Below, piece by piece: positions 2,900 to 17,114 of a stretch of DNA of 37,144 nt (within the stretch, counting starts at the first letter, position 1; each line of letters opens with the position of its first letter). This stretch comes from an uncultured Spirochaetaceae bacterium (GTDB lineage: Bacteria; Spirochaetota; Spirochaetia; Sphaerochaetales; Sphaerochaetaceae). The notes below the pieces were generated by a model. It saw nothing but the letters and a program-made list of their open reading frames with translations. It searched no databases and was not told the DNA's origin. The stretch is taken from NCBI GenBank assembly GCA_944392735.1, contig CALXXR010000125.1:1-37144 (forward strand), read 5' to 3'. The position numbers and the translations under genes are program-made.

Positions 2900-5800
2900 A
2901 TGGCAGACAAGAAAATGGTTACCATTGATGGAAACACCGCTGCTGCGTATGTTGCATATGCATTCAGCGATGTAGCCGCGATTTACCCGATTACTCCGTC
3001 CTCTCCGATGGGCGAGTATGCAGAGCAGTGGTCCTCCACGGGCCAGGAGAACCTCTGGGGCAAGAAAGTAGACATCATGGAGATGCAGTCCGAGGCTGGC
3101 GCCGCCGGAGCCGTCCATGGTTCTCTCGCCGCAGGAGCTCTGACAACCACGTTCACGGCATCTCAGGGACTTCTCCTGATGATCCCGAACATGTACAAGA
3201 TCGCTGGTGAGATGATCCCTACGGTCTTCCATGTCTCGGCTAGATCGCTTGCTGCACAGTCACTCTCCATCTTCGGCGATCACTCCGATGTCATGGCATG
3301 CCGCAACACCGGATTCGCAATGACCTGCGCTTCCAGCATCCAGGAGACGAGGGACATGGCTCTTGTCGCCCATCTCGCCACGCTCGAGTCGCAGATCCCG
3401 TTCCTTGCATTCTTCGACGGATTCAGGACATCCCACGAGATCCAGAAGGTCGAGCAGTTCTCCTATGACGATATGCGCTCGCTCGTCGATGAGAAGTACA
3501 TCGAGCGCTTCCGCTCACGCGCACAGCGCCCTGAGCACCCGATGACGAAGGTCGCTGCACAGAACGAAGACGTCTACTTCCAGGGAAGGGAGACGGTCAA
3601 CCCGTACTATGATGCAGTTCCCGCCATCGTACAGAAGTACATGGACAAGGTCGCTGCCATCACAGGAAGGCAGTACCATCTCTTCGACTATGTGGGAGCT
3701 CCCGATGCGACGGATGTCATCATCATCATGGGCAGCGCCGCCGATACGTTCGAGTGGGTCGTCGACTACATCAACAAGAAGGGCGGAAAGGTCGGACTCG
3801 TGAAGGTCAGGCTCTACAGGCCGTTCTCCGCAAAGGACCTCGTCGCATGCATCCCGGCATCCGTGAAGAGGATCGCCGTCATGGACAGGACGAAGGAACC
3901 AGGCGCTCTCGGAGAGCCTCTCTACGAGGATGTCGTAACAGCTCTCGCACAGCAGGGCAGGACCGGCATGAAGGTCATCGGCGGCCGCTATGGCCTTTCC
4001 TCGAAGGACTTCACGCCTACCCACGCAAAGTCGGTATTCGACTTCCTTGCACGCGACGATGCATGGCATGACTTCACCGTTGGAATCAACGACGATGTCA
4101 CAGGCCGCTCGATTCCTGTAGGCGACAAGATCGATGTCACGCCAGCTGGCGTCGTCTCCTGCATGTTCTGGGGACTTGGCTCCGATGGTACGGTCGGTGC
4201 GAACAAGAACTCCATCAAGATCATCGGCGACAACACCGACATGAACGCCCAGGCATACTTCGCATACGATTCGAAGAAGTCAGGCGGAATCACGATCTCC
4301 CACCTCAGGTTCGGAAAGGGCAAGCTCGATATGCCATGGCTCATCGACCATGCGGACTTCGTAGCATGCCACAACCCGGCATACATCGGTCGCTATGATA
4401 TGCTCTCGGCTCTCAAGGATGGCGGTGTATTCCTCCTCAACAGCCAGATTCCTTCCGATGAGGTCTTCGAGCACCTCACAAGGGATATGCAGGAGCAGAT
4501 CATCAACAAGCACATCCACTTCTACAACATCGATGCTCTCGACATCGCAAGGAGCGTAGGACTCGGATCGAGGATCAATACGGTCATGCAGGCCGCATTC
4601 TTCAAGATCGCCAACGTCCTTCCTGAGACAGAGGCCATCGAGCTGATCAAGAAGTATATCAAGAAGACGTTCCTCAAGAAGGGCGAGGAGGTCGTCAACA
4701 AGAACTGGGCAGCCGTCGATGGCGCTTCCGCAGCTCTCGTAGAGGTCAAGGTTCCTTCCCAGATCACGAAGAGCTACGAGCCTAAGAGGCTCATCCCGGA
4801 CGATGCAGATGACTTCACGAAGAACGTCATCGAGCGCATCATGCACCTCGAGGGCAATGATATCCCCGTCTCTCAGATGTCCTACGATGGAAAGCTTCCC
4901 ACCGGAACGGCAAAGCTGGAGAAGAGGGGCGTCGCAGCCTATGTTCCACACTGGGACAGCACGAAGTGCATCCAGTGCAACCAGTGCGTCCAGTCCTGTC
5001 CGCATGCAGCTATCCGCGCTAAGCAGATCACGCCTGAGGATATGGAGAAGGCACCGGCTACATTCAAGGCCATCAAGTCCAACACGAAGAACGATCGCAA
5101 CCTCCTCTTCAAGATCCAGGTCTACACGGAGGACTGCCAGGGATGCGGCGTCTGCGTAGAGGCCTGCCCTGCTAAGGAGAAGGCTCTTGAGCTCAAGCCG
5201 ATCGCAGAGGAAAGGGCCAATGGCGAGATCGAGAACTGCACATTCTTCGAGGGCCTCACATACGACAACCTCGACGGACTGAATATGGGAACGGTCAAGG
5301 GCCTGCAGTTCAAGCAGCCGCTCTTCGAGTTCTCCGGCGCATGCGCTGGCTGCGGCGAGACTCCGTATGTGAAGATGCTTTCGCAGATCTGCGGCGAGAG
5401 GGCAGTCATTGCAAACGCAACGGGATGCTCCTCCATCTACTCCGGAACATTCCCGACCATCCCGTACACCAAGAGGGCTGACGGACGTGGGCCGGCATGG
5501 GGCAACTCGCTCTTCGAGGACAATGCTGAGTATGGTCTCGGTATGCGCCTCGCTGTCGATTCCAACAGGAACCTCCTCAAGCTGAAGTGCGATGCGCTCA
5601 TGGCGAAGGGATGCTCTGCAGAGCTCAAGGCAGCTATCGAGAAGTGCTACTCGCTCTGGACAGACATCACAGAGGCTTCCATCGAGGCTCAGAAGGAAGT
5701 CCAGGCTGTCCTCGCCAAGGAGAAGGCTGCGGATGCAGAGTCTGCGGTCATCCTCGAGAAGATCATCGAGCTCCAGGACTACTTCTCCGAGAAGGACGTC

Positions 5801-6442
5801 ATCATCATCGGCGGCGATGGCTGGGCCTATGATATCGGATTCGGCGGCGTGGACCACGTGGTTGCCTCCGGCAAGAACGTGACGATCCTCGTCCTCGATA
5901 CGGAGGTCTACTCCAACACAGGTGGACAGGCTTCGAAGTCGACGCCTATGGCAGCAGTCGCGAAGTTCGCAAATGCTGGAAAGAAGGTCGGCAAGAAGAA
6001 CATGGGCTTCATGATGATGAGCTATGGCCATGCATATGTTGCTTCCGTTGCTCTCGGATACAACAGGCTCCAGGCACAGAAGGCTCTCCAGGAAGCTGTC
6101 GCATACGACGGTCCTTCGATCGTCTTCTGCTACGCACCGTGCATCAACCACGGAATCAACATGAGGTACTCTCAGGTTGAGGCGAAGAAGGCTGTCGAGG
6201 CTGGCTACTGGCCGCTCTATCGCTTCGATCCTCGCCTTGAGGCAGGAAAGAGGTTCATCTGGGAGACCAAGCCGGCTACAGCGGACTACCAGGAGTTCAT
6301 CAAGGGCGAGACAAGGTACGCTTCGCTCTACAAGACGAACCCCGAGCATGCTGATGAGCTCTTCGCAGCAGCTGCTGAGGATGCAAAGGATAGGCTTGCA
6401 TTCTATCAGAAGTGCGGCGAGGTTCTCGGCGAGACGATCTAA
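2900..6442 (+). CDS. nifJ: Pyruvate:ferredoxin (flavodoxin) oxidoreductase
   Basis: Oxidises pyruvate with coenzyme A to acetyl-CoA and CO2 in the cytoplasm and passes electrons to ferredoxin or flavodoxin; the main pyruvate-oxidising step of many anaerobes. At 1180 residues it has the usual length of the fused, single-chain enzyme. The N-terminal pyrimidine-binding domain carries YPITPSSPMGEYAEQW. Two [4Fe-4S] ferredoxin motifs are intact: CIQCNQCVQSCP from residue 690 and CQGCGVCVEACP from residue 746. The cluster-proximal motif ACAGCGETPY follows, then the thiamine diphosphate site GDGWAYDIGFGG near residue 972 and DTEVYSNTGGQ. The ATG at 2900 is preceded by AGGAG six bases upstream. Codon use is strongly biased, as in highly expressed genes. 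It is a single-gene transcript with its own promoter and terminator. Confidence 0.97.
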   Translation: MADKKMVTIDGNTAAAYVAYAFSDVAAIYPITPSSPMGEYAEQWSSTGQENLWGKKVDIMEMQSEAGAAGAVHGSLAAGALTTTFTASQGLLLMIPNMYKIAGEMIPTVFHVSARSLAAQSLSIFGDHSDVMACRNTGFAMTCASSIQETRDMALVAHLATLESQIPFLAFFDGFRTSHEIQKVEQFSYDDMRSLVDEKYIERFRSRAQRPEHPMTKVAAQNEDVYFQGRETVNPYYDAVPAIVQKYMDKVAAITGRQYHLFDYVGAPDATDVIIIMGSAADTFEWVVDYINKKGGKVGLVKVRLYRPFSAKDLVACIPASVKRIAVMDRTKEPGALGEPLYEDVVTALAQQGRTGMKVIGGRYGLSSKDFTPTHAKSVFDFLARDDAWHDFTVGINDDVTGRSIPVGDKIDVTPAGVVSCMFWGLGSDGTVGANKNSIKIIGDNTDMNAQAYFAYDSKKSGGITISHLRFGKGKLDMPWLIDHADFVACHNPAYIGRYDMLSALKDGGVFLLNSQIPSDEVFEHLTRDMQEQIINKHIHFYNIDALDIARSVGLGSRINTVMQAAFFKIANVLPETEAIELIKKYIKKTFLKKGEEVVNKNWAAVDGASAALVEVKVPSQITKSYEPKRLIPDDADDFTKNVIERIMHLEGNDIPVSQMSYDGKLPTGTAKLEKRGVAAYVPHWDSTKCIQCNQCVQSCPHAAIRAKQITPEDMEKAPATFKAIKSNTKNDRNLLFKIQVYTEDCQGCGVCVEACPAKEKALELKPIAEERANGEIENCTFFEGLTYDNLDGLNMGTVKGLQFKQPLFEFSGACAGCGETPYVKMLSQICGERAVIANATGCSSIYSGTFPTIPYTKRADGRGPAWGNSLFEDNAEYGLGMRLAVDSNRNLLKLKCDALMAKGCSAELKAAIEKCYSLWTDITEASIEAQKEVQAVLAKEKAADAESAVILEKIIELQDYFSEKDVIIIGGDGWAYDIGFGGVDHVVASGKNVTILVLDTEVYSNTGGQASKSTPMAAVAKFANAGKKVGKKNMGFMMMSYGHAYVASVALGYNRLQAQKALQEAVAYDGPSIVFCYAPCINHGINMRYSQVEAKKAVEAGYWPLYRFDPRLEAGKRFIWETKPATADYQEFIKGETRYASLYKTNPEHADELFAAAAEDAKDRLAFYQKCGEVLGETI

Positions 6443-6461
6443 GGGAAACCTTAGGAAAGAT

Positions 6462-6490
6462 GAGAGGCAGCTTTCGGGCTGCCTCTTTTC
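6462..6490 (+). terminator. Rho-independent terminator of the PFOR gene
   Basis: GAGGCAGC (6464-6471) pairs perfectly with GCTGCCTC (6478-6485) around a TTTCGG loop and runs directly into TTTTC. The position 20 bases after the stop codon is ideal. Confidence 0.88.
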
Positions 6491-6503
6491 TGTATTTCAG
6501 GGC

Positions 6504-6509
6504 TATAAT
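6504..6509 (+). promoter_or_regulatory. -10 box TATAAT directly before the nuclease gene
   Basis: A perfect TATAAT ends seven bases before the ATG at 6517, so transcription would begin at or next to the start codon. No good -35 box is seen; the upstream region is the PFOR terminator. No Shine-Dalgarno sequence precedes the ATG. Confidence 0.5.
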
Positions 6510-6516
6510 CATCCAT

Positions 6517-7401
6517 ATGCTTGCAAGATTTCGTTCAGCTTTCGTACTGCTATCGGTTCTCATCCTCATCTCAGGATGCGATTTCATCATGGACATGTTC
6601 CCGGACGGAGAGAATCCTTCGACCCCAGGTGCAGAGATGCCGGTGGATGGGGATGACGGGAATGCGCTCCTTGGATTGCCGTCTTCTGCGGAAAGGAATA
6701 CCCAGCTGATATCACGTGAGGCATATACCCTTCTGTTCAGCTATGATGACCTCATCCCGCTTTGGGTTTCCTGGCATCTCGATGACGAGGATACAGGTAC
6801 AGGGCGCGATGCGGATTTCCGCGGGGATCCAAATGTACCTCAGGAGTATAGGCTCAACAAAGACGATTATACCAACTGCGGATATGACCGAGGCCATATC
6901 TGTCCAAATGCCGACAGGAGCGGTGATGATGGTATGCAGCAGGAATCGTTCTATATGACCAACATAGTCCCGCAGAATGGCGACAACAACCAAGGCGTCT
7001 GGCGTGAATTGGAGGAGTTCATCCGTAGCGAATACATAGACAATGGAAAGGAGGCGTATATCATCGCTGGTCCAGCTGGCGTGGGCGGCTATGATGAAGA
7101 CGGCGAACTGCGTGAGTCGTTCACGACGGAAGTCGATGGAAAGGACGTGGAGGTGACTGTTCCGGCCTATGTGTGGAAGATCGCGATCATAATCGATGAC
7201 GGAAACGATGATCTTGATAGGATTGAGGATCGTGGTGTGACGGTGCTTGCTGTATGCATGCCGAATGCGGATCCAGGCAGCAACGCATGGGATGATTATG
7301 TCTGCACCATAGATCATATCGAAGAGCTTACCGGATACGATTTCCTTTCAGCTGTCGATGACAGCATCGAGGCTTCACTCGAGACCAGGAAGTACGCTTA
7401 G
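6517..7401 (+). CDS. Secreted lipoprotein DNA/RNA non-specific endonuclease
   Basis: The 294-residue product starts with a short basic n-region, a hydrophobic stretch and a lipobox LISGC (Cys near residue 21), so it is a probable lipoprotein. The body matches DNA/RNA non-specific endonucleases (beta-beta-alpha metal fold): the catalytic motif DRGHICPNADR is followed by SFYMTNIVPQ and, downstream, the metal-binding Asn region NNQGVWRELE. Such enzymes cut DNA and RNA outside the cytoplasm, often for nutrient scavenging. The frame is open upstream to 6412, but the ATG at 6517 is chosen because only it puts the signal sequence at the N-terminus. It lacks a Shine-Dalgarno sequence and sits seven bases after TATAAT, suggesting a leaderless mRNA. 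The mature N-terminus is acidic and low in complexity, probably a tether. Confidence 0.88.
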   Translation: MLARFRSAFVLLSVLILISGCDFIMDMFPDGENPSTPGAEMPVDGDDGNALLGLPSSAERNTQLISREAYTLLFSYDDLIPLWVSWHLDDEDTGTGRDADFRGDPNVPQEYRLNKDDYTNCGYDRGHICPNADRSGDDGMQQESFYMTNIVPQNGDNNQGVWRELEEFIRSEYIDNGKEAYIIAGPAGVGGYDEDGELRESFTTEVDGKDVEVTVPAYVWKIAIIIDDGNDDLDRIEDRGVTVLAVCMPNADPGSNAWDDYVCTIDHIEELTGYDFLSAVDDSIEASLETRKYA

Positions 7402-8149: not shown

Positions 8150-9373
<1,224 letters not shown>

Positions 9374-9391: not shown

Positions 9392-9423
9392 ATGATGGCG
9401 GATGCATATGCGTCCGCCATCAT
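9392..9423 (+). terminator. Intercistronic hairpin between mglB and mglA
   Basis: A stem of 11 perfect pairs (ATGATGGCGGA, 9392-9402, with 9413-9423) continues with three more pairs to an ATAT loop. No T-tract follows. The position after a binding-protein gene fits partial termination or 3'-end protection, which keeps binding protein in excess over ATPase and permease, as known for malE and other transporter operons. Confidence 0.6.
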
Positions 9424-9455
9424 CGGCATTTCGACGCACAGTTTGGAAGGACAAG

Positions 9456-10952
9456 ATGAGTGGGAAGACTGTACTTGAGATAAAGAATCTATCCAAGTCC
9501 TTTGCCAAGAACAGGGTCCTTGATGGCATTAACCTCACAGTGGAGGAAGGCACCGTATGTGGGCTCATGGGAGAGAACGGAGCCGGCAAATCCACTATGA
9601 TGAAATGCCTTTTCGGCATCTATGCAAAGGATGAAGGGCAGATTTCCCTCTTCGGCCATCCGATAGATTTCAAGAATCCAAAGGATGCGCTGGAGAATGG
9701 AGTGGCTATGGTGCACCAGGAGCTGCAGCAGTGCCTGGATCGCACGGTTATGGATAATCTGTTCCTCGGCCGCTACCCGACGAAGGGCGGGATAGTCGAT
9801 GAGGCGAGGATGCTCAGGGAGAGCAACAATCTCTTCGCCAGGCTGAAGATGAATGTGAACCCGAAGACGGTGATGAGGACGATGTCCGTCTCGCAGCGTC
9901 AGATGGTGGAGATAGCAAAGGCCGTCAGCTACGATGCCAAGCTCATCGTACTCGATGAGCCGACGAGCTCCCTCACCGAGAGAGAGGTGAAGAAGCTCTT
10001 CTCAATTGTCGACGACCTCAGGAAGCAGGGTATTTCCTTTGTATATATATCCCATAAGATGGATGAGATCTTCGAGATCTGCGATGATGTCGCCGTCCTC
10101 CGCGATGGCAAGATGATCTTCAAGAAGCGCATCTCGGATACGAACATGAACGATCTCATTGCGGCAATGGTTGGGCGCTCCCTCGACAAGCGCTTCCCCG
10201 ATGTGGACAACATGCCAGGCGAGGACTACCTCGTCGTCCAGGATCTTAGGACGAAGTACAATCCCGTGCTGCATGACATCTCATTCTCCGTGCGCCGAGG
10301 CGAGATATTCGGGCTGTATGGCCTTGTCGGAGCCGGCAGGAGCGAGCTTCTCGAGTCGATGTTCGGAATCAGGACCATCGCCAGCGGCGAGATCGCCGTC
10401 AATGGCAAGAAGATGAGGTTCCGCTCCTCGAAGGATGCCATGGAGCATTCCTTCGCGCTCGTCACGGAGGAGAGGAAGCTCAACGGCATGTTCGGCAAGG
10501 ATACCATCAAGTTCAACACCACGATCACGAACCTGGAGGCATACAAGAGCTTCCATCTCCTTGATAACAAGAAGATGTACGAGGCGACCAACAGGGAGAT
10601 CTCGGTGATGAACACGAAGTGCGTCTCGCCGGATGAGCTCATAACTGCGCTCTCCGGAGGAAACCAGCAGAAGGTCATCATCGGAAAGTGGATGGAGAGG
10701 GCTCCAGAGGTGTTCCTCATGGATGAGCCGACGCGAGGAATCGATGTCGGTGCGAAGTATGAGATCTATCAGCTGATCATCAGGATGGCCAAGGAAGGGA
10801 AGACGATCATCGTCGTCTCCTCCGAGATGCCCGAGATCCTCGGTATCACGAACAGGATAGCGGTGATGAGCAACCATCGCCTCGCTGGTATCGTCAATAC
10901 CAAGGAGACGAATCAGGAAGAGCTTCTCAGGCTCTCTGCCAAGTATCTGTAA
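9456..10952 (+). CDS. mglA: Galactose/glucose ABC transporter ATP-binding protein MglA
   Basis: A 498-residue cytoplasmic ATPase with two fused nucleotide-binding domains, as is typical for the sugar (CUT2) class. Domain 1 has Walker A GENGAGKST, a signature region TMSVSQRQMVEIAKA in place of a strict LSGGQ, and Walker B LIVLDEPTSSL. Domain 2 has the degenerate Walker A GLVGAGRSE, signature LSGGNQQKVIIGKW and Walker B VFLMDEPTRGID. This asymmetry is normal for MglA/RbsA. The ATG at 9456 is chosen because GGAAGG lies five bases upstream; the frame is open to 9402 but that extension overlaps the intercistronic hairpin. It stands between mglB and mglC and must energise the permease at 10964-12649. 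Confidence 0.94.
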   Translation: MSGKTVLEIKNLSKSFAKNRVLDGINLTVEEGTVCGLMGENGAGKSTMMKCLFGIYAKDEGQISLFGHPIDFKNPKDALENGVAMVHQELQQCLDRTVMDNLFLGRYPTKGGIVDEARMLRESNNLFARLKMNVNPKTVMRTMSVSQRQMVEIAKAVSYDAKLIVLDEPTSSLTEREVKKLFSIVDDLRKQGISFVYISHKMDEIFEICDDVAVLRDGKMIFKKRISDTNMNDLIAAMVGRSLDKRFPDVDNMPGEDYLVVQDLRTKYNPVLHDISFSVRRGEIFGLYGLVGAGRSELLESMFGIRTIASGEIAVNGKKMRFRSSKDAMEHSFALVTEERKLNGMFGKDTIKFNTTITNLEAYKSFHLLDNKKMYEATNREISVMNTKCVSPDELITALSGGNQQKVIIGKWMERAPEVFLMDEPTRGIDVGAKYEIYQLIIRMAKEGKTIIVVSSEMPEILGITNRIAVMSNHRLAGIVNTKETNQEELLRLSAKYL

Positions 10953-10963
10953 GGAGTGGGAAT

Positions 10964-12649
10964 ATGGCGGATAATCAGGACAAGGGGATCATCGCCCTTG
11001 AGGAGAATAAGAAGGTTCAGGAGTACTCCGAGAAGCTGCGCGAGCTCAGGGCAGATGGAGTCAAGAAGCTGAATGACTGCAGGATCGAGCTTGCCTCATT
11101 GAAGAAGAACAAGCTCATCGATGAGTCCGATAGGACAAAGCGCATCCAGGAGCTGAATGCCGAGATCGAGAAGGCTAAGGCCGTCGAGGCGCAGAACAGG
11201 GCTGAGGTCGCGGCCATATCCAAGGAGGCGGTGAAGTACGTCAACACCATCTCCAGGGACATCGAGGCGGCGGTCAATGCAAAGCAGGACAAGAGGATCG
11301 AAGGCGCCAAGGCCTTCTACGCCAAGGAAGTGGGCGAGATCAAGAGCTCCTATGAAGCAAGGGAGAACGAAATCAAGTCGCGCCTCTCTGGCGGCGATCC
11401 GCAGATGCTCAAGAGCGAGCTCGAGATCTGCCATTATGAGCTCAAGAGCGCTCTCTTCGATTCCAAGTCCAGATTCAAGGATCATGTGGATAGGGCAAAG
11501 GCCGCCAAGCATCAGGCCTTCGTCGACCATATCCAGAAGAACAGGGAGCTGAGGAACGGAAAGTCCGCATTCGGCGAGGACATGCAGATGAAGTGGAAGA
11601 GCTTCATCAGGAACTTCACGCCATCCTCGTTCTTCCTTGCGAATGGACTCTATATAGCGATCATCATCTTCTTCATCGTCTGCATCATAGCAGCTCCGCT
11701 GATGGGATCGGGCAACCTCCTTTCGCTTCCGAACATCCTCACGATCCTCGAGCAGGCCTCGACCAGGATGTTCTATGCCCTCGGCGTCGCAGGACTCATC
11801 CTCCTTGCAGGCACCGATCTCTCGATCGGAAGGATGGTCGCTCTCGGCTCGGTTACGACGGGCCTTATCCTCCATCCGGGCATGAACATCGTATCGCTCT
11901 TCGGATTCCCGACCTGGGACTTCTCCTCCCTTCCGATGGGCGTGAGGGTGCTCATGGCGCTTGGACTTGCGATCGTGCTCTGCGTCTTCTTCAGCGCTGT
12001 CGCCGGATTCTTCACGGCACGCTTCAAGATGCATCCGTTCATCTCCACGATGGCCAACCAGCTGATCATCTACGGAATGCTCTTCTATGGAACATCCGGA
12101 ACGCCTGTCGGATCGATCGACAGCAGCATCAGGAGCCTCATCGGAGGAAGGTGGACCATCGGAGTGCTCAACGGGCAGCTCATAACTTTCCCGAAGCTCA
12201 TCATCCCAGCGGTCATCGCTATCATCGTCGCATGGCTCATCTGGAACAAGACGACATTCGGAAAGAACATGTACGCGGTCGGCGGCAATGCCGAAGCGGC
12301 GGCTGTATCCGGAATCTCCGTATTCTGGGTCACGGTGGGCGTATTCATCATGGCGGGCGTCTTCTATGGCTGCGGATCGTTCCTCGAGGCCTTCAGGGCG
12401 AATGCCTCCGCCGGTACGGGACAGGGCTATGAGATGGATGCCATCGCGGCCTGCGTCGTCGGTGGAATCTCGTTCAATGGCGGTATAGGAAAGATAGGCG
12501 GCGCTGCGATAGGCGTTGTCATATTCACATCGCTCACATACTGCCTCACATTCCTTGGAATCGACACGAACCTCCAGTTCGTCTTCAAGGGATTCATCAT
12601 CCTTGCTGCCGTCTCGCTCGACAGCATCAAGTACCTGAAGAAGAAATGA
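10964..12649 (+). CDS. mglC: Galactose/glucose ABC transporter permease MglC with long N-terminal extension
   Basis: The C-terminal ~345 residues are a membrane permease of the MglC/RbsC family: a first membrane segment near residues 228-245, the conserved GTDLSIGRMVALGSV, KMHPFISTMANQ and the cytoplasmic EAA-like loop GNAEAAAVSGI, and FNGGIGKIGGA near the end. The E. coli protein has about 336 residues in all. Here it is preceded by about 205 hydrophilic, highly charged residues rich in Lys, Glu, Ala and Leu (for example KLRELRADGVKKL, RIQELNAEIEKAKAVE) that are predicted by eye to form coiled coils in the cytoplasm. The ATG at 10964 follows AAGGAG and lies 11 bases after mglA. There is no frameshift between the two parts. 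The role of the extension is unknown; sensing, clustering or regulation of the transporter are possibilities. Confidence 0.92.
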   Translation: MADNQDKGIIALEENKKVQEYSEKLRELRADGVKKLNDCRIELASLKKNKLIDESDRTKRIQELNAEIEKAKAVEAQNRAEVAAISKEAVKYVNTISRDIEAAVNAKQDKRIEGAKAFYAKEVGEIKSSYEARENEIKSRLSGGDPQMLKSELEICHYELKSALFDSKSRFKDHVDRAKAAKHQAFVDHIQKNRELRNGKSAFGEDMQMKWKSFIRNFTPSSFFLANGLYIAIIIFFIVCIIAAPLMGSGNLLSLPNILTILEQASTRMFYALGVAGLILLAGTDLSIGRMVALGSVTTGLILHPGMNIVSLFGFPTWDFSSLPMGVRVLMALGLAIVLCVFFSAVAGFFTARFKMHPFISTMANQLIIYGMLFYGTSGTPVGSIDSSIRSLIGGRWTIGVLNGQLITFPKLIIPAVIAIIVAWLIWNKTTFGKNMYAVGGNAEAAAVSGISVFWVTVGVFIMAGVFYGCGSFLEAFRANASAGTGQGYEMDAIAACVVGGISFNGGIGKIGGAAIGVVIFTSLTYCLTFLGIDTNLQFVFKGFIILAAVSLDSIKYLKKK

Positions 12650-12662
12650 TCTCTTCTTCCGC

Positions 12663-12697
12663 AAAGGAAAGCTGGGCCTCGGCTCAGCTTTTCCTTT
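12663..12697 (+). terminator. Long hairpin between mglC and the second binding-protein gene
   Basis: AAAGGAAAGCTG (12663-12674) pairs, with one bulge, with CAGCTTTTCCTTT (12685-12697). The T-rich 3' arm would also act as the U-tract. It may end most mglABC transcripts with some read-through into the gene at 12709, whose Shine-Dalgarno AAGGAA starts at the foot of the stem. Confidence 0.6.
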
Positions 12698-12708
12698 AAG
12701 GAACGGAA

Positions 12709-13698
12709 ATGCTCAGACTCCTCCTCGTCGCCATCATCTCGGTTTCCCTTCCGCTGTTCGCTTCCGGCTCTGTCGAGGAGCCGCGGATCGGCGTCGCCGT
12801 CTACGATTTCCAGGACTCCTACATCACCGAGGTCCGCAATGCCATCACCGCATGCAGCGAGGGCGGGATTCCCGTGACGATCGTCGATGCGGAGGGCAGG
12901 CAGCAGCGCCAGAACGAGCAGATAGAGCGCTTCATCGACGAAGGCTTCGATGCCATCATCGTGAACTCGGTGGACAGGACCGCTTCCGGCGTCCTCATCG
13001 AGAAGTGCAGGCAGAGCGGCGTTCCCCTCGTCTTCTTCAACAGAGAACCTGTGAAGGAGGATATGGCGAAGTGGGATAAGGTCTACTATGTAGGGGCTCG
13101 GGCAGAGGACTCGGGAAGGATGGCTGGGGATATCCTTGCGGATTACTGGCTCATGCATCCCGAGATGGACCGCAACGGCGATGGCGTGCTCCAGTTCGTC
13201 GTGATCAGGGGCGAGACCGGGCACCAGGACACGGAGCTTCGCACGGAGTACTTCATAGAGACCCTTCTTGATCACTCGATACCCCTTGAGAAGCTCCATG
13301 AGGACACCGGTCTATGGTCGCGCGAGAAGGGGTATGAGGTGATGAAGTCCTTCATCTCCCGCTCGGGCGATGCGATAGAGGCCGTCTTCGCCAACAACGA
13401 CGATATGGCGCTCGGTGCGATAGAGGCGCTCCAGGAGGCAGGATACTTCGGCAGCAGGGGGTATATGCCCGTCATCGGCATCGATGGCACTCCCACGGGC
13501 AGGGCAGCGCTGGAGAACGGCATGATGCTCGGCTCCGTCTTCAATGATGCGCAGAACCAGGGAAGGGCGGCGTATCTGCTGGCTGTCGAGCTTGCTGAGG
13601 GCAGGATCCCGACGTTGGATTCCATCGGCTATGAGATCGTCGATGGACGCTATGTCTGGATACCTTACCAGCCGCTGCCTGGACGGAATGCCGTATGA
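12709..13698 (+). CDS. Galactose/glucose-binding protein of ordinary topology
   Basis: A second periplasmic sugar-binding protein, 329 residues with a signal peptide (cleavage near LFAS). Unlike the product of 8159-9373 it has the standard GGBP order: RIGVAVYDFQDSY (sugar-contact positions 14-16), IIVNSVD, FFNREP (Asn91), calcium loop DRNGDGVLQF, GETGHQDTELR (His152, Asp154, Arg158), LWSREKG (Trp183), FANNDDMALG (Asn211), GIDGTPTG (Asp236) and SVFNDAQNQG (Asn256). All key ligand residues are present, with Tyr for Phe16. The best guess is a glucose or galactose receptor sharing MglA and MglC, or one that signals to the neighbouring kinase (inference). AAGGAA precedes the ATG. No separate promoter is evident, so expression may depend on read-through from mglC. 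Confidence 0.9.
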   Translation: MLRLLLVAIISVSLPLFASGSVEEPRIGVAVYDFQDSYITEVRNAITACSEGGIPVTIVDAEGRQQRQNEQIERFIDEGFDAIIVNSVDRTASGVLIEKCRQSGVPLVFFNREPVKEDMAKWDKVYYVGARAEDSGRMAGDILADYWLMHPEMDRNGDGVLQFVVIRGETGHQDTELRTEYFIETLLDHSIPLEKLHEDTGLWSREKGYEVMKSFISRSGDAIEAVFANNDDMALGAIEALQEAGYFGSRGYMPVIGIDGTPTGRAALENGMMLGSVFNDAQNQGRAAYLLAVELAEGRIPTLDSIGYEIVDGRYVWIPYQPLPGRNAV

Positions 13699-13782: not shown

Positions 13783-15540
13783 TCAGGATTTCATCACGAC
13801 TGGCTGTATAGGTGGCAGGTGCGGTATCGTGATCTCCACGGTGGTGCCCTCGTCCGGCTCGGAGGCTATCGAGAGACCATACCTCTCGCCATACGACAGC
13901 TTTATCCTCTCGTCTATGTTGATGATGCCGATGCCATTCCCATCCGTGATGTGCTTGCGCTCGCTGCTCTTGTCCAGGAGCGTCGAGAGCACGTCAGGCG
14001 TCATCCCGACCCCATTGTCCGAGACTGCGATCACGATCGTTCCGTCCTCTCCCTCCCTGGCTGATATCCTGATGAGACCTTCATCCTGCAGGTACTTGAT
14101 CCCATGGTAGATGGAGTTCTCGACTATGGGCTGGATGATGAGCTTGATCGTCGGCGCGTTCTCCAGCTCCTTGGGCAGGTCGATCTCGAAGCGGAACTTG
14201 TCCTTGTACCGCATCGACTGGATGTCGAGATAGCTCTCGACATGGGCAAGCTCCTCCTTGAGCGTGATCGTATCATGGCCCTTCGCTATCGAGATCCTGA
14301 AGAGGCTTGCAAGCGCAGTGACCATCTTCACGACACCCTGGCTGTTCCCTGTCTCCGCCATCCAGACGACGCTGTCGAGCGTGTTGTATAGGAAGTGCGG
14401 GTTGATCTTCGCCTGAAGCGCATCCAGCTCCCTCTGGCGCTTCACCGCCTCGGTCTTGCGCACCTCCTCCATAAGATCCTCGATGCGGCGTATCATGATC
14501 TGGAACGATTGCGATAGCGATGCAACCTCCGCCGATCCACCGCTTGTCTCTGTGATGGAGAAGTCGCCGTCCTGCACCTTCCTCATGTCCATCTCAAGCT
14601 TTCGAAGCGGCTTCGTGATCCTCTTGGATATCGAGTTGGAGAGCAGCGTCGCGGCGACGACGGATGCCACGAGGATGAGAGCAAGCGTGATGCGGAAGGG
14701 CTTGAGCGGCTCTAGGAGCTCATCCATGAATGCCACTCCAACGATCCTCCAGCGCGTCTGCTCCACCGTCTGTATGATCGTAAGCCTATCCCTGCCCTCG
14801 AATGAGGAGAAGTATGAGCCGTAGATATGCTCCGCGACGCTCCCGAGATCCTCCTCCAGCGTTCCCTCTGACAGCTGCAGCTCCTTTGGATGATAGACGA
14901 TGTCCCCATCGTTGGAGATGATGTAGATGTAGCCTGTGCGCGAGAGGTGAACGCTCTCCGACAGCTCCGCGATGGCATTGAAGTTGAGCTCTATCAGGAG
15001 GATGGCGGGGGAGGCGGCCCTGTTTATGTCGCCGTAGCTGATGATGGTGGAGTAGGAGATGACGAAGTCCTCGGATTCGAGGCTGCGGTGCGGGCCGGTG
15101 AAGAAGATGTCGCCCTCTCCGTCCTTTGCTCTCCTGAACCATTGCGATGAGGCGATGTCCTCAGGATCGGCATCCGGCAGGGGGCTGGTGGAGATGATGG
15201 TGCGCCCATCCATGTCGAAGGCTGCTATGCCCACGAGGTCGTCGCGCGAATTGATCAGCGCCTCGAGCCTCATCTTGATCTCGTCGGCAGCGAGGTTCGA
15301 TGTCGTCCTTGCCAGCTCCCTGGCGTAGTCCGAGACGTCGATGATATCCGAGATGTAGGTGCTGAGGTTGTTGTTGACCTGCGTCACGATCTCCGATGTC
15401 GACTCCATCGCGTTCGATTCGATGGCGCCGGAGACGAAGATGGATAGCAGCGCTCCGACGATGAGGATGAAGACGGATATGAGCGAGGCCATCGAGGCGG
15501 CCATCAGCGTTCTGATCGATACCTCTCCGCTTCTCTTCAT
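13783..15540 (-). CDS. Sensor histidine kinase, LytS/YesM type
   Basis: A 585-residue membrane sensor. A first membrane segment lies near residues 12-40, followed by a large extracytoplasmic sensor region of Cache type (GIAAFDMDGRTIIST, GYIYIISNDGDIVYHP). A second membrane segment (ALILVASVVAATLL) leads into a HAMP linker, then the His_kinase motif INPHFLYNTLDSV with the phosphorylated His near residue 382, and an ATPase domain with PIVENSIYHGIK, SDNGVGM and NGIGIINIDERI. It autophosphorylates and hands the phosphate to its partner regulator. The gene overlaps the response regulator gene by four bases (15537-15540), so the pair is co-translated. It converges on the sugar transporter, which suggests sugar sensing (inference). 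Confidence 0.93.
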   Translation of the reverse strand: MKRSGEVSIRTLMAASMASLISVFILIVGALLSIFVSGAIESNAMESTSEIVTQVNNNLSTYISDIIDVSDYARELARTTSNLAADEIKMRLEALINSRDDLVGIAAFDMDGRTIISTSPLPDADPEDIASSQWFRRAKDGEGDIFFTGPHRSLESEDFVISYSTIISYGDINRAASPAILLIELNFNAIAELSESVHLSRTGYIYIISNDGDIVYHPKELQLSEGTLEEDLGSVAEHIYGSYFSSFEGRDRLTIIQTVEQTRWRIVGVAFMDELLEPLKPFRITLALILVASVVAATLLSNSISKRITKPLRKLEMDMRKVQDGDFSITETSGGSAEVASLSQSFQIMIRRIEDLMEEVRKTEAVKRQRELDALQAKINPHFLYNTLDSVVWMAETGNSQGVVKMVTALASLFRISIAKGHDTITLKEELAHVESYLDIQSMRYKDKFRFEIDLPKELENAPTIKLIIQPIVENSIYHGIKYLQDEGLIRISAREGEDGTIVIAVSDNGVGMTPDVLSTLLDKSSERKHITDGNGIGIINIDERIKLSYGERYGLSIASEPDEGTTVEITIPHLPPIQPVVMKS

Positions 15541-17114
15541 CTGTGGCTGGCCCTGTACTGCGACGGCGAGACGCCGATGTTCTTCTTGAAGATGAAGGAG
15601 AAGTAGTTCGGCTCGGAGAATCCCGTCATCTCCGCTATCTCATACGTCTTCGCATCGGAGCTTTTCAGCAGCTCCTTCGCCTTCTCGAGCCTCACGTTCG
15701 TCAGATACTGCACGAATGAGGCTCCCGTCTCCTTCTTGAATGTCGTGGAGAAGTATGCTGGCGATACGGATATCTCATCGGTCAGCTGCTCCAATCCGAA
15801 CACCGGATCGCCGTAGCGCTCCCTGATGATCTTCTTCGCGTTCTCCACGAACTGGATGTGGGAGTTCTCCCTGACGCCGGAGGCCATCTCGTTCGCCCGC
15901 TTCGCAAGCTTCGTCATCAGGCTCTCGGAGCGCGAGAGGCTGTTGGCATGGGAGAGGGCCAGGAAGAGGTCCTCATCGCCGAGGAGCGTCGCCACGTTCC
16001 TTCCGTATGATGAGCATATCTCGGAGATGATGGAGAGGATGTTGATGACCGTGTTCTGCACGTTCGGCGTCTCGGCGATGCCCTGGAAGAAGGCATGTAT
16101 CGCCTTCTCCGTATCCTCGCTGTTGCCGAACTTTATCGCAAGGACGAGCTCGCTGCGGAGCTCTCCGGCGGCATCGATATGGTCGTTCTCGATCGTCTCC
16201 ACGTCCCCGATGCTGATGATGTGCTGCTCTGGGTATATCTGCGTGTAGTTCAGAGCCTCCAATGCACTGCGGTATGACTCGGGAAGCGCGGTGGACTCAT
16301 GCACGATCTCCCCGATTCCCATGTTGAAGGACCTAGAGAAGTAGTGGATGATCCTCGACTGCAGCAGCGATAGCGAGCGGTAGACCTGCTTGGCGAAGAG
16401 CGGTGAGAAGCTGTCCTGCATGTCCGATGAGAAGATCATCACGATCTGGTTCTCGTACTGGAAGGGGATGATGCTCCTGTCCTCCTTCGTCGCCTCGTCG
16501 ATGATCTCCTCGACAGCCACCGTGGAAAGGGGCTGGGAAGGGGCATCTATGACGCTCACTGCGAACATCCTGCCCTCCAGGGGAACGCCGTATTCCTCAG
16601 CCCTGGCGGCGATGGCTGCGGCATCCTGGCGCCTGGTGGGTGCTATGAGCGAGACGAGGAACTTCTCCTTGTACACCTCGATGGCCTCGCGGTAGAACGC
16701 ATCGAGCTTCTCCTTGTCGGAGACCTTCGCCCTGTCCTCATCCAGCCGTGCCCTTGAACGCTTCAGTACGTCCCTCATCGAGGCGACGCTGACGGGCTTG
16801 AGCACGTATTCTGCGACATCGAGCCTCATCGCCGTCTGCGCGAAGGTGAATTCATCGTAGCCTGAGAGGATGATGACCTCTACCGAGGAGGAGCGGCTTC
16901 TTCGCACTTCCTCGATGAATCCTATGCCATCGAGATACGGCATCCTGATATCCGTGATGATGACATCAGGCATCGTCTCCTCTACGAAGTCGAGGGCTTC
17001 CATGCCGTTCGAGGCTTCGCCGATGACCTCGAAGCCGTATTCCGACCAAGGGGTCAGGTCCCTGATCGATCTCCTTACCTCATCCTCATCGTCTACAAGC
17101 AGGATCGTGTACAT
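15537..17114 (-). CDS. Response regulator with AraC-type DNA-binding domain (YesN type)
   Basis: A 525-residue cytoplasmic transcription regulator. The N-terminal receiver domain has the acidic pair DDED near residue 8, the phospho-acceptor Asp near residue 55 in VIITDIRMPYLDG and the conserved Lys in VLKPVS. A long middle section is typical of YesN-like regulators. The last ~100 residues hold two AraC helix-turn-helix motifs (LEQLTDEISVSPAYFSTTFK and YEIAEMTGFSEPNYFSFIFK). Its start overlaps the stop of the WYL gene by one base (TGATG) and its end overlaps the kinase gene by four bases. Such pairs commonly activate nearby sugar-transporter genes; control of the mgl locus is a reasonable guess. 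Confidence 0.93.
   Translation of the reverse strand: MYTILLVDDEDEVRRSIRDLTPWSEYGFEVIGEASNGMEALDFVEETMPDVIITDIRMPYLDGIGFIEEVRRSRSSSVEVIILSGYDEFTFAQTAMRLDVAEYVLKPVSVASMRDVLKRSRARLDEDRAKVSDKEKLDAFYREAIEVYKEKFLVSLIAPTRRQDAAAIAARAEEYGVPLEGRMFAVSVIDAPSQPLSTVAVEEIIDEATKEDRSIIPFQYENQIVMIFSSDMQDSFSPLFAKQVYRSLSLLQSRIIHYFSRSFNMGIGEIVHESTALPESYRSALEALNYTQIYPEQHIISIGDVETIENDHIDAAGELRSELVLAIKFGNSEDTEKAIHAFFQGIAETPNVQNTVINILSIISEICSSYGRNVATLLGDEDLFLALSHANSLSRSESLMTKLAKRANEMASGVRENSHIQFVENAKKIIRERYGDPVFGLEQLTDEISVSPAYFSTTFKKETGASFVQYLTNVRLEKAKELLKSSDAKTYEIAEMTGFSEPNYFSFIFKKNIGVSPSQYRASHR

Follow-up and report, generated by a model that had tools for sequence, protein, structure and literature searches.

The window analysed here, a stretch of 37,144 nucleotides from an uncultured Spirochaetaceae bacterium, encodes a sugar permease, MglC, in which some 217 residues precede the first membrane helix, and this N-terminal extension is genuinely coding and conserved. 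The long MglC permeases form one clade on the permease tree, on which the extension has a single origin, and they are encoded alongside a circularly permuted binding protein, MglB. We put at about one half the probability that the extension is a cytoplasmic domain of these clade-specific Mgl permeases whose rods would lie along the ATPase MglA and hold or tune the motor, a reading drawn from sequence comparison and predicted structure. The features are as follows.

8159 to 9373, forward strand: mglB, circularly permuted glucose/galactose-binding protein (Peripla_BP_4 then a C-terminal Peripla_BP_7; match to 5JX2/TP0684)
9402 to 10952, forward strand: mglA, tandem ATPase subunit and proposed docking partner (ABC_tran twice, MglA model; co-divergence with the extension)
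10951 to 10956, forward strand: AAGGAG, the ribosome-binding site of mglC, 7 nt ahead of its start codon and overlapping the mglA stop codon
10964 to 11614, forward strand: MglC N-terminal extension, residues 1-217 (in-frame ORF; homologues in Spirochaetota and Bacillota; dN/dS 0.05-0.13)
11009 to 11107, forward strand: predicted helix 1, residues 16-48, with L28, R29 and G32 (AlphaFold2; conservation)
11123 to 11386, forward strand: predicted helix 2, 88 residues (54-141) (AlphaFold2)
11399 to 11551, forward strand: predicted helix 3, residues 146-196, with the YE.KSALFDAKS motif (AlphaFold2; conservation)
11552 to 11611, forward strand: LRNGK..F.E junction and predicted elbow helix before TM1, residues 197-216, R197 and E205 invariant (conservation; AlphaFold2)
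11621 to 12646, forward strand: MglC permease domain, residues 220-561 (PF02653 and NF007014 matches; membrane helices in the AlphaFold2 model)

The mgl Operon and the Extended Permease

The mglC frame (10964-12649, forward strand) reads uninterrupted through 561 codons, with its ATG at 10964 placed 11 nt past the mglA stop. A first-pass annotation of this DNA had described the extension as in frame, free of a frame break and preceded by a good ribosome-binding site, and the 561-residue frame with AAGGAG 7 nt ahead of the ATG agrees with this on each point. The BPD_transp_2 domain (PF02653) occupies residues 257-549 (E 5e-27) and the E. coli MglC model NF007014 (336 positions) aligns from residue 221 through to the end of the protein, so that the surplus at the N terminus amounts to approximately 210-220 residues, confirming the 205-225 first estimated. 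The window permease shares with E. coli MglC and other CUT2 permeases (PF02653) the permease domain, the mglB-mglA-mglC gene order and NF007014 as its best model, and with a sugar-binding protein, a tandem ATPase and a permease encoded together the importer is, as judged from its genes, of the galactose/glucose (Mgl, CUT2-type) class. It differs from E. coli MglC in being about 215 residues longer at the N terminus and in scoring 269 bits against the curated NF007014 cut-off of 386, and because it falls below that threshold it is not classed as an equivalog of the E. coli protein.

Several other features of the window were noted around the operon. A canonical MglB-like protein without an ATPase or permease of its own is encoded at 12709-13698 (forward strand), next to genes for a histidine kinase of the Cache/HAMP kind and a response regulator of the AraC type (13783-15540 and 15537-17114, both reverse strand). 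The same trio of binding protein, kinase and regulator also flanks three short-form mgl operons (L190, L191 and L194). There the homologue of the MglB-like protein (55-57% identical) serves as the binding protein of the operon itself, so the solitary protein may be a remnant that has been retained for sensing. Further upstream, 6412-7401 (forward strand) encodes a probable secreted DNA/RNA non-specific endonuclease (PF01223) with a cysteine towards the end of the hydrophobic stretch at its N terminus. Two long reverse-strand frames, 11096-12664 (522 amino acids) opposite mglC and 4280-6349 (689 amino acids) opposite the pyruvate:ferredoxin oxidoreductase gene, are probably by-products of codon usage.

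Selection on the Extension and the Site of Translation Initiation

Comparison with relatives for which dS could be estimated gives the extension a dN/dS of 0.05-0.13, showing purifying selection at the protein level, with third codon positions changing most; the permease part is under stricter constraint (0.01-0.1). Short motifs (LR.DG, KEAV.Y.N, YE.KSALFDAKS and LRNGK..F.E) are strongly kept amid a fast-evolving background, and Arg-197 and Glu-205 are invariant among 46 sequences. The first-pass annotation held that the region would be dismissed if translation began near 11580, and two ATG codons do lie inside the gene, at 11582 (Met-207) and 11588, as would be expected if the real permease began near 11582 and the upstream frame were separate. 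Met-207 is, however, a methionine in only 47% of relatives and position 209 is mostly leucine, whereas most of the relatives have a ribosome-binding site and start at the equivalent upstream place, under a start-picking rule that itself favours starts with a ribosome site. Together with the purifying selection acting on the extension, this makes an internal start hardly credible, and it was rejected.

Predicted Structure and Topology

The AlphaFold2 model of full-length MglC, built on 46 homologues, places helices at residues 16-48, 54-141 and 146-196, followed by an elbow at 203-216 and the first membrane helix, TM1, from residue 220. Modelled alone, the extension is predicted to adopt the same helices and to be wholly helical (pLDDT 91.3, pTM 0.75), which, with 39% charged residues and a single proline, matches its original description as highly charged and helix-forming. 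That description had also proposed a coiled coil; the helical fold stands, but a canonical heptad repeat does not, the best periods of 3.5-3.75 being no better than those of shuffled sequences (shuffle P 0.2-0.9), and because of this "helical rod" is the safer label. From the positions of the turns between the predicted helices, the first part of helix 2 would pack on helix 1 and its second part on helix 3, forming a long rod of antiparallel helices that the short elbow would connect to TM1, with the membrane junction near the middle of the rod. The extension is almost certainly cytoplasmic, as the residues before 220 contain neither a signal nor a membrane segment and five Lys/Arg residues lie between 197 and 219 and the following loop has none.

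No Pfam or NCBIfam family covers the first 217 residues, and searches of the PDB by sequence and by fold returned no significant match to the extension. The top fold matches (designed bundles, Smc, F-BAR and XPR1) have E values of about 0.1 or worse and rmsd values of 10-34 Å and were set aside, and matches to ATP synthase b' (E 0.019) and to DUF7286 (8 of 34 members) appear to reflect generic resemblance between helices. The extension is shorter by about 50 residues in Treponema bryantii and its relatives (L051, L053, L060 and L067), with most of helix 1 and the N-terminal part of helix 2 absent.

Distribution and Phylogeny of the Long Permeases

Full-length relatives are found at 60-92% identity in Ornithospirochaeta-like and Treponema-like spirochaetes and at 47-50% in Oscillospiraceae, Lachnospiraceae and Erysipelotrichaceae. 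Scores of genomes encode homologous extensions, with identities falling as low as 26-30%. The extension is present in 65 of 393 genomes drawn from the phylum of the window; the feature recurs as a subfamily trait and is not unique to the window gene. It is present in 21 of 200 genomes of one Bacillota family and in only 2 of 398 genomes of a wide Bacillota draw. Matching genomes nearly always contain a single copy, and almost all of the matched frames are of permease length (about 490-650 codons).

A long branch in the permease tree (SH-aLRT 100) separates all long forms from the other permeases, the sole "short" row inside the long clade (L071) being truncated by a contig end. The premise that an N-terminal domain is not normal for such permeases is correct for the short-form permeases sampled and fails for an entire clade in which the arm is standard. 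Apparent decay of the long system is seen in other treponemes, at the loci L172 (G311), L181 (G454) and L178 (G463:C29): a permuted mglB that has neither mglA nor mglC nearby, a long mglC split over two frames for which no neighbouring mglB was found, and an mglA that reads into a shortened extension followed by a permease with a broken frame.

Pairing with a Circularly Permuted MglB

The window MglB is of the permuted type, since the piece that forms the N-terminal subdomain of canonical proteins lies at its C terminus: Peripla_BP_7 matches residues 325-395, the C-terminal 71 residues, after Peripla_BP_4, whereas in the canonical proteins L192, L195, L196 and L198 the Peripla_BP_7 piece is N-terminal instead. 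It also matches 5JX2/TP0684 end to end (residues 34-404, 591 bits, E 7e-177). The circular permutation of T. pallidum MglB-2 (TP0684, PDB code 5JX2; "Type Ic/Cluster Bc") was described by Brautigam et al. (PMC4990184), who state that homologues of the tp0686 permease are distributed similarly to the permuted MglB. The window system has this permuted MglB in common with the T. pallidum MglB-2 system, and the genome holding L173 contains an MglB nearly identical to 5JX2 together with a long MglC whose extension is divergent.

A TP0684-type permuted MglB is encoded in 83 of the 83 long-permease loci with a readable upstream binding-protein gene and a canonical one in none, the exceptions being loci at contig ends (L043, L052, L075, L079, L081 and L174), one whose true mglC lies past a contig end (L171) and the decayed or split copies L172, L178 and L181. 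Conversely, all 18 short-permease loci have a canonical MglB and none a permuted one, and among the 200 genomes of one Bacillota family the long permease and the permuted MglB occur in exactly the same 21. The pairing found here goes further than the similar distribution noted in PMC4990184, in being strict and in defining a permease clade. Because the arm and MglB are on opposite sides of the membrane, their association is best explained by the two genes being inherited as a single operon and not by contact. A simple pattern finds no lipobox in 45 of 106 permuted MglB proteins, which have ordinary signal peptides (FAQGG/FAGG), and the window MglB looks alike; this speaks against the suggestion, made in PMC4990184, that the permuted topology adapts the binding protein to membrane tethering.

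Co-divergence with MglA and Possible Roles of the Extension

If the arm touches a cytosolic partner its divergence should follow that of the partner, which is the premise of a mirror-tree comparison. Among 65 spirochaete loci the extension correlates with MglA with a partial r of 0.55 after the effects of the permease, MglB and G+C are removed, compared with 0.08 for MglB, although Mantel permutations ignore the tree and their P values are too small. Neither a reduced alphabet nor thinning of the taxa abolishes the signal, and it also survives the removal of RecA effects. RecA, an unrelated cytosolic protein of similar divergence and the single control protein used, is available in 29 genomes, in which the extension correlates at 0.59 with MglA (range 0.55-0.60 overall), at 0.18-0.22 with RecA and at -0.06 with MglB. 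Because the extension tracks MglA, follows RecA weakly and does not follow MglB, the pattern favours docking of the arm on MglA. The signal is diffuse along both MglA and the arm and singles out no interface, and although 34 positions of MglA differ between the long- and short-form groups, no long-form-specific insertion was found in it. Rods, one per MglC copy, would lie along MglA and would either hold it on the permease or tune its activity. The loss of most of helix 1 and the N-terminal part of helix 2 in some Treponema and the divergence of the extension in the T. pallidum-type genome indicate that much of the arm is not strictly required.

The first-pass annotation had listed MglA contact, clustering, a regulator and cell positioning among the possible roles; the first is favoured, indirectly, by the co-divergence, and spirochaete cell positioning is made unlikely by the presence of the same arm in non-spirochaete Bacillota. 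The elongated helical prediction, and weak fold matches dominated by rod-like coiled coils and F-BAR domains, would fit rods that pair between transporters or between two MglC copies, clustering or rigidifying the importers without MglA as a partner, but this is unlikely, as those matches are generic and fall short of significance (E no better than about 0.1), clear heptads are lacking and pairing alone leaves the co-divergence with MglA unexplained. The strongly conserved short motifs in a fast-evolving background could be expected of an arm that holds another cytosolic protein, for example a sugar kinase or a carbon-regulation protein. This is doubtful given that no partner gene confined to the long form turned up in the neighbourhood, where the trio of binding protein, kinase and response regulator is shared with short operons, and that the co-divergence points to MglA. 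The tails of ProP, BetP and OpuA are known to sense ionic strength or crowding, and the 39% of charged residues would suit a comparable switch in MglC; with no match to a known sensor domain or fold and no obvious need for osmotic gating of glucose uptake, such a switch is improbable. Docking on MglA is the reading we prefer.

Relationship to Other ABC Importers

In ABC importers such as MetNI, ModBC and OpuA, cytoplasmic regulatory domains are found mainly on the ATPase and bind ligands. The window importer resembles these in having an extra cytoplasmic domain adjoining the motor, and differs in that the arm sits on the permease, is predicted to be all-helical and matches no family or fold. 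More tentatively, the permuted-MglB importers may constitute a distinct class that has been remodelled on either side of the membrane, in which the permease arm would regulate MglA directly, a new regulatory architecture among sugar ABC importers that would include the T. pallidum glucose importer. The permuted MglB is already published (PMC4990184); text searches of that paper gave no mention of a permease extension, and we could not find a published description of the arm.

The likely glucose gateway of T. pallidum belongs to a widespread subfamily with an arm-bearing permease, which can be recognised in sequence by the combination of a permuted binding protein with the arm. The arm is a specific, testable addition to ideas on how type II ABC sugar importers may be put together or controlled, relevant to abundant gut bacteria as well as to spirochaetes.
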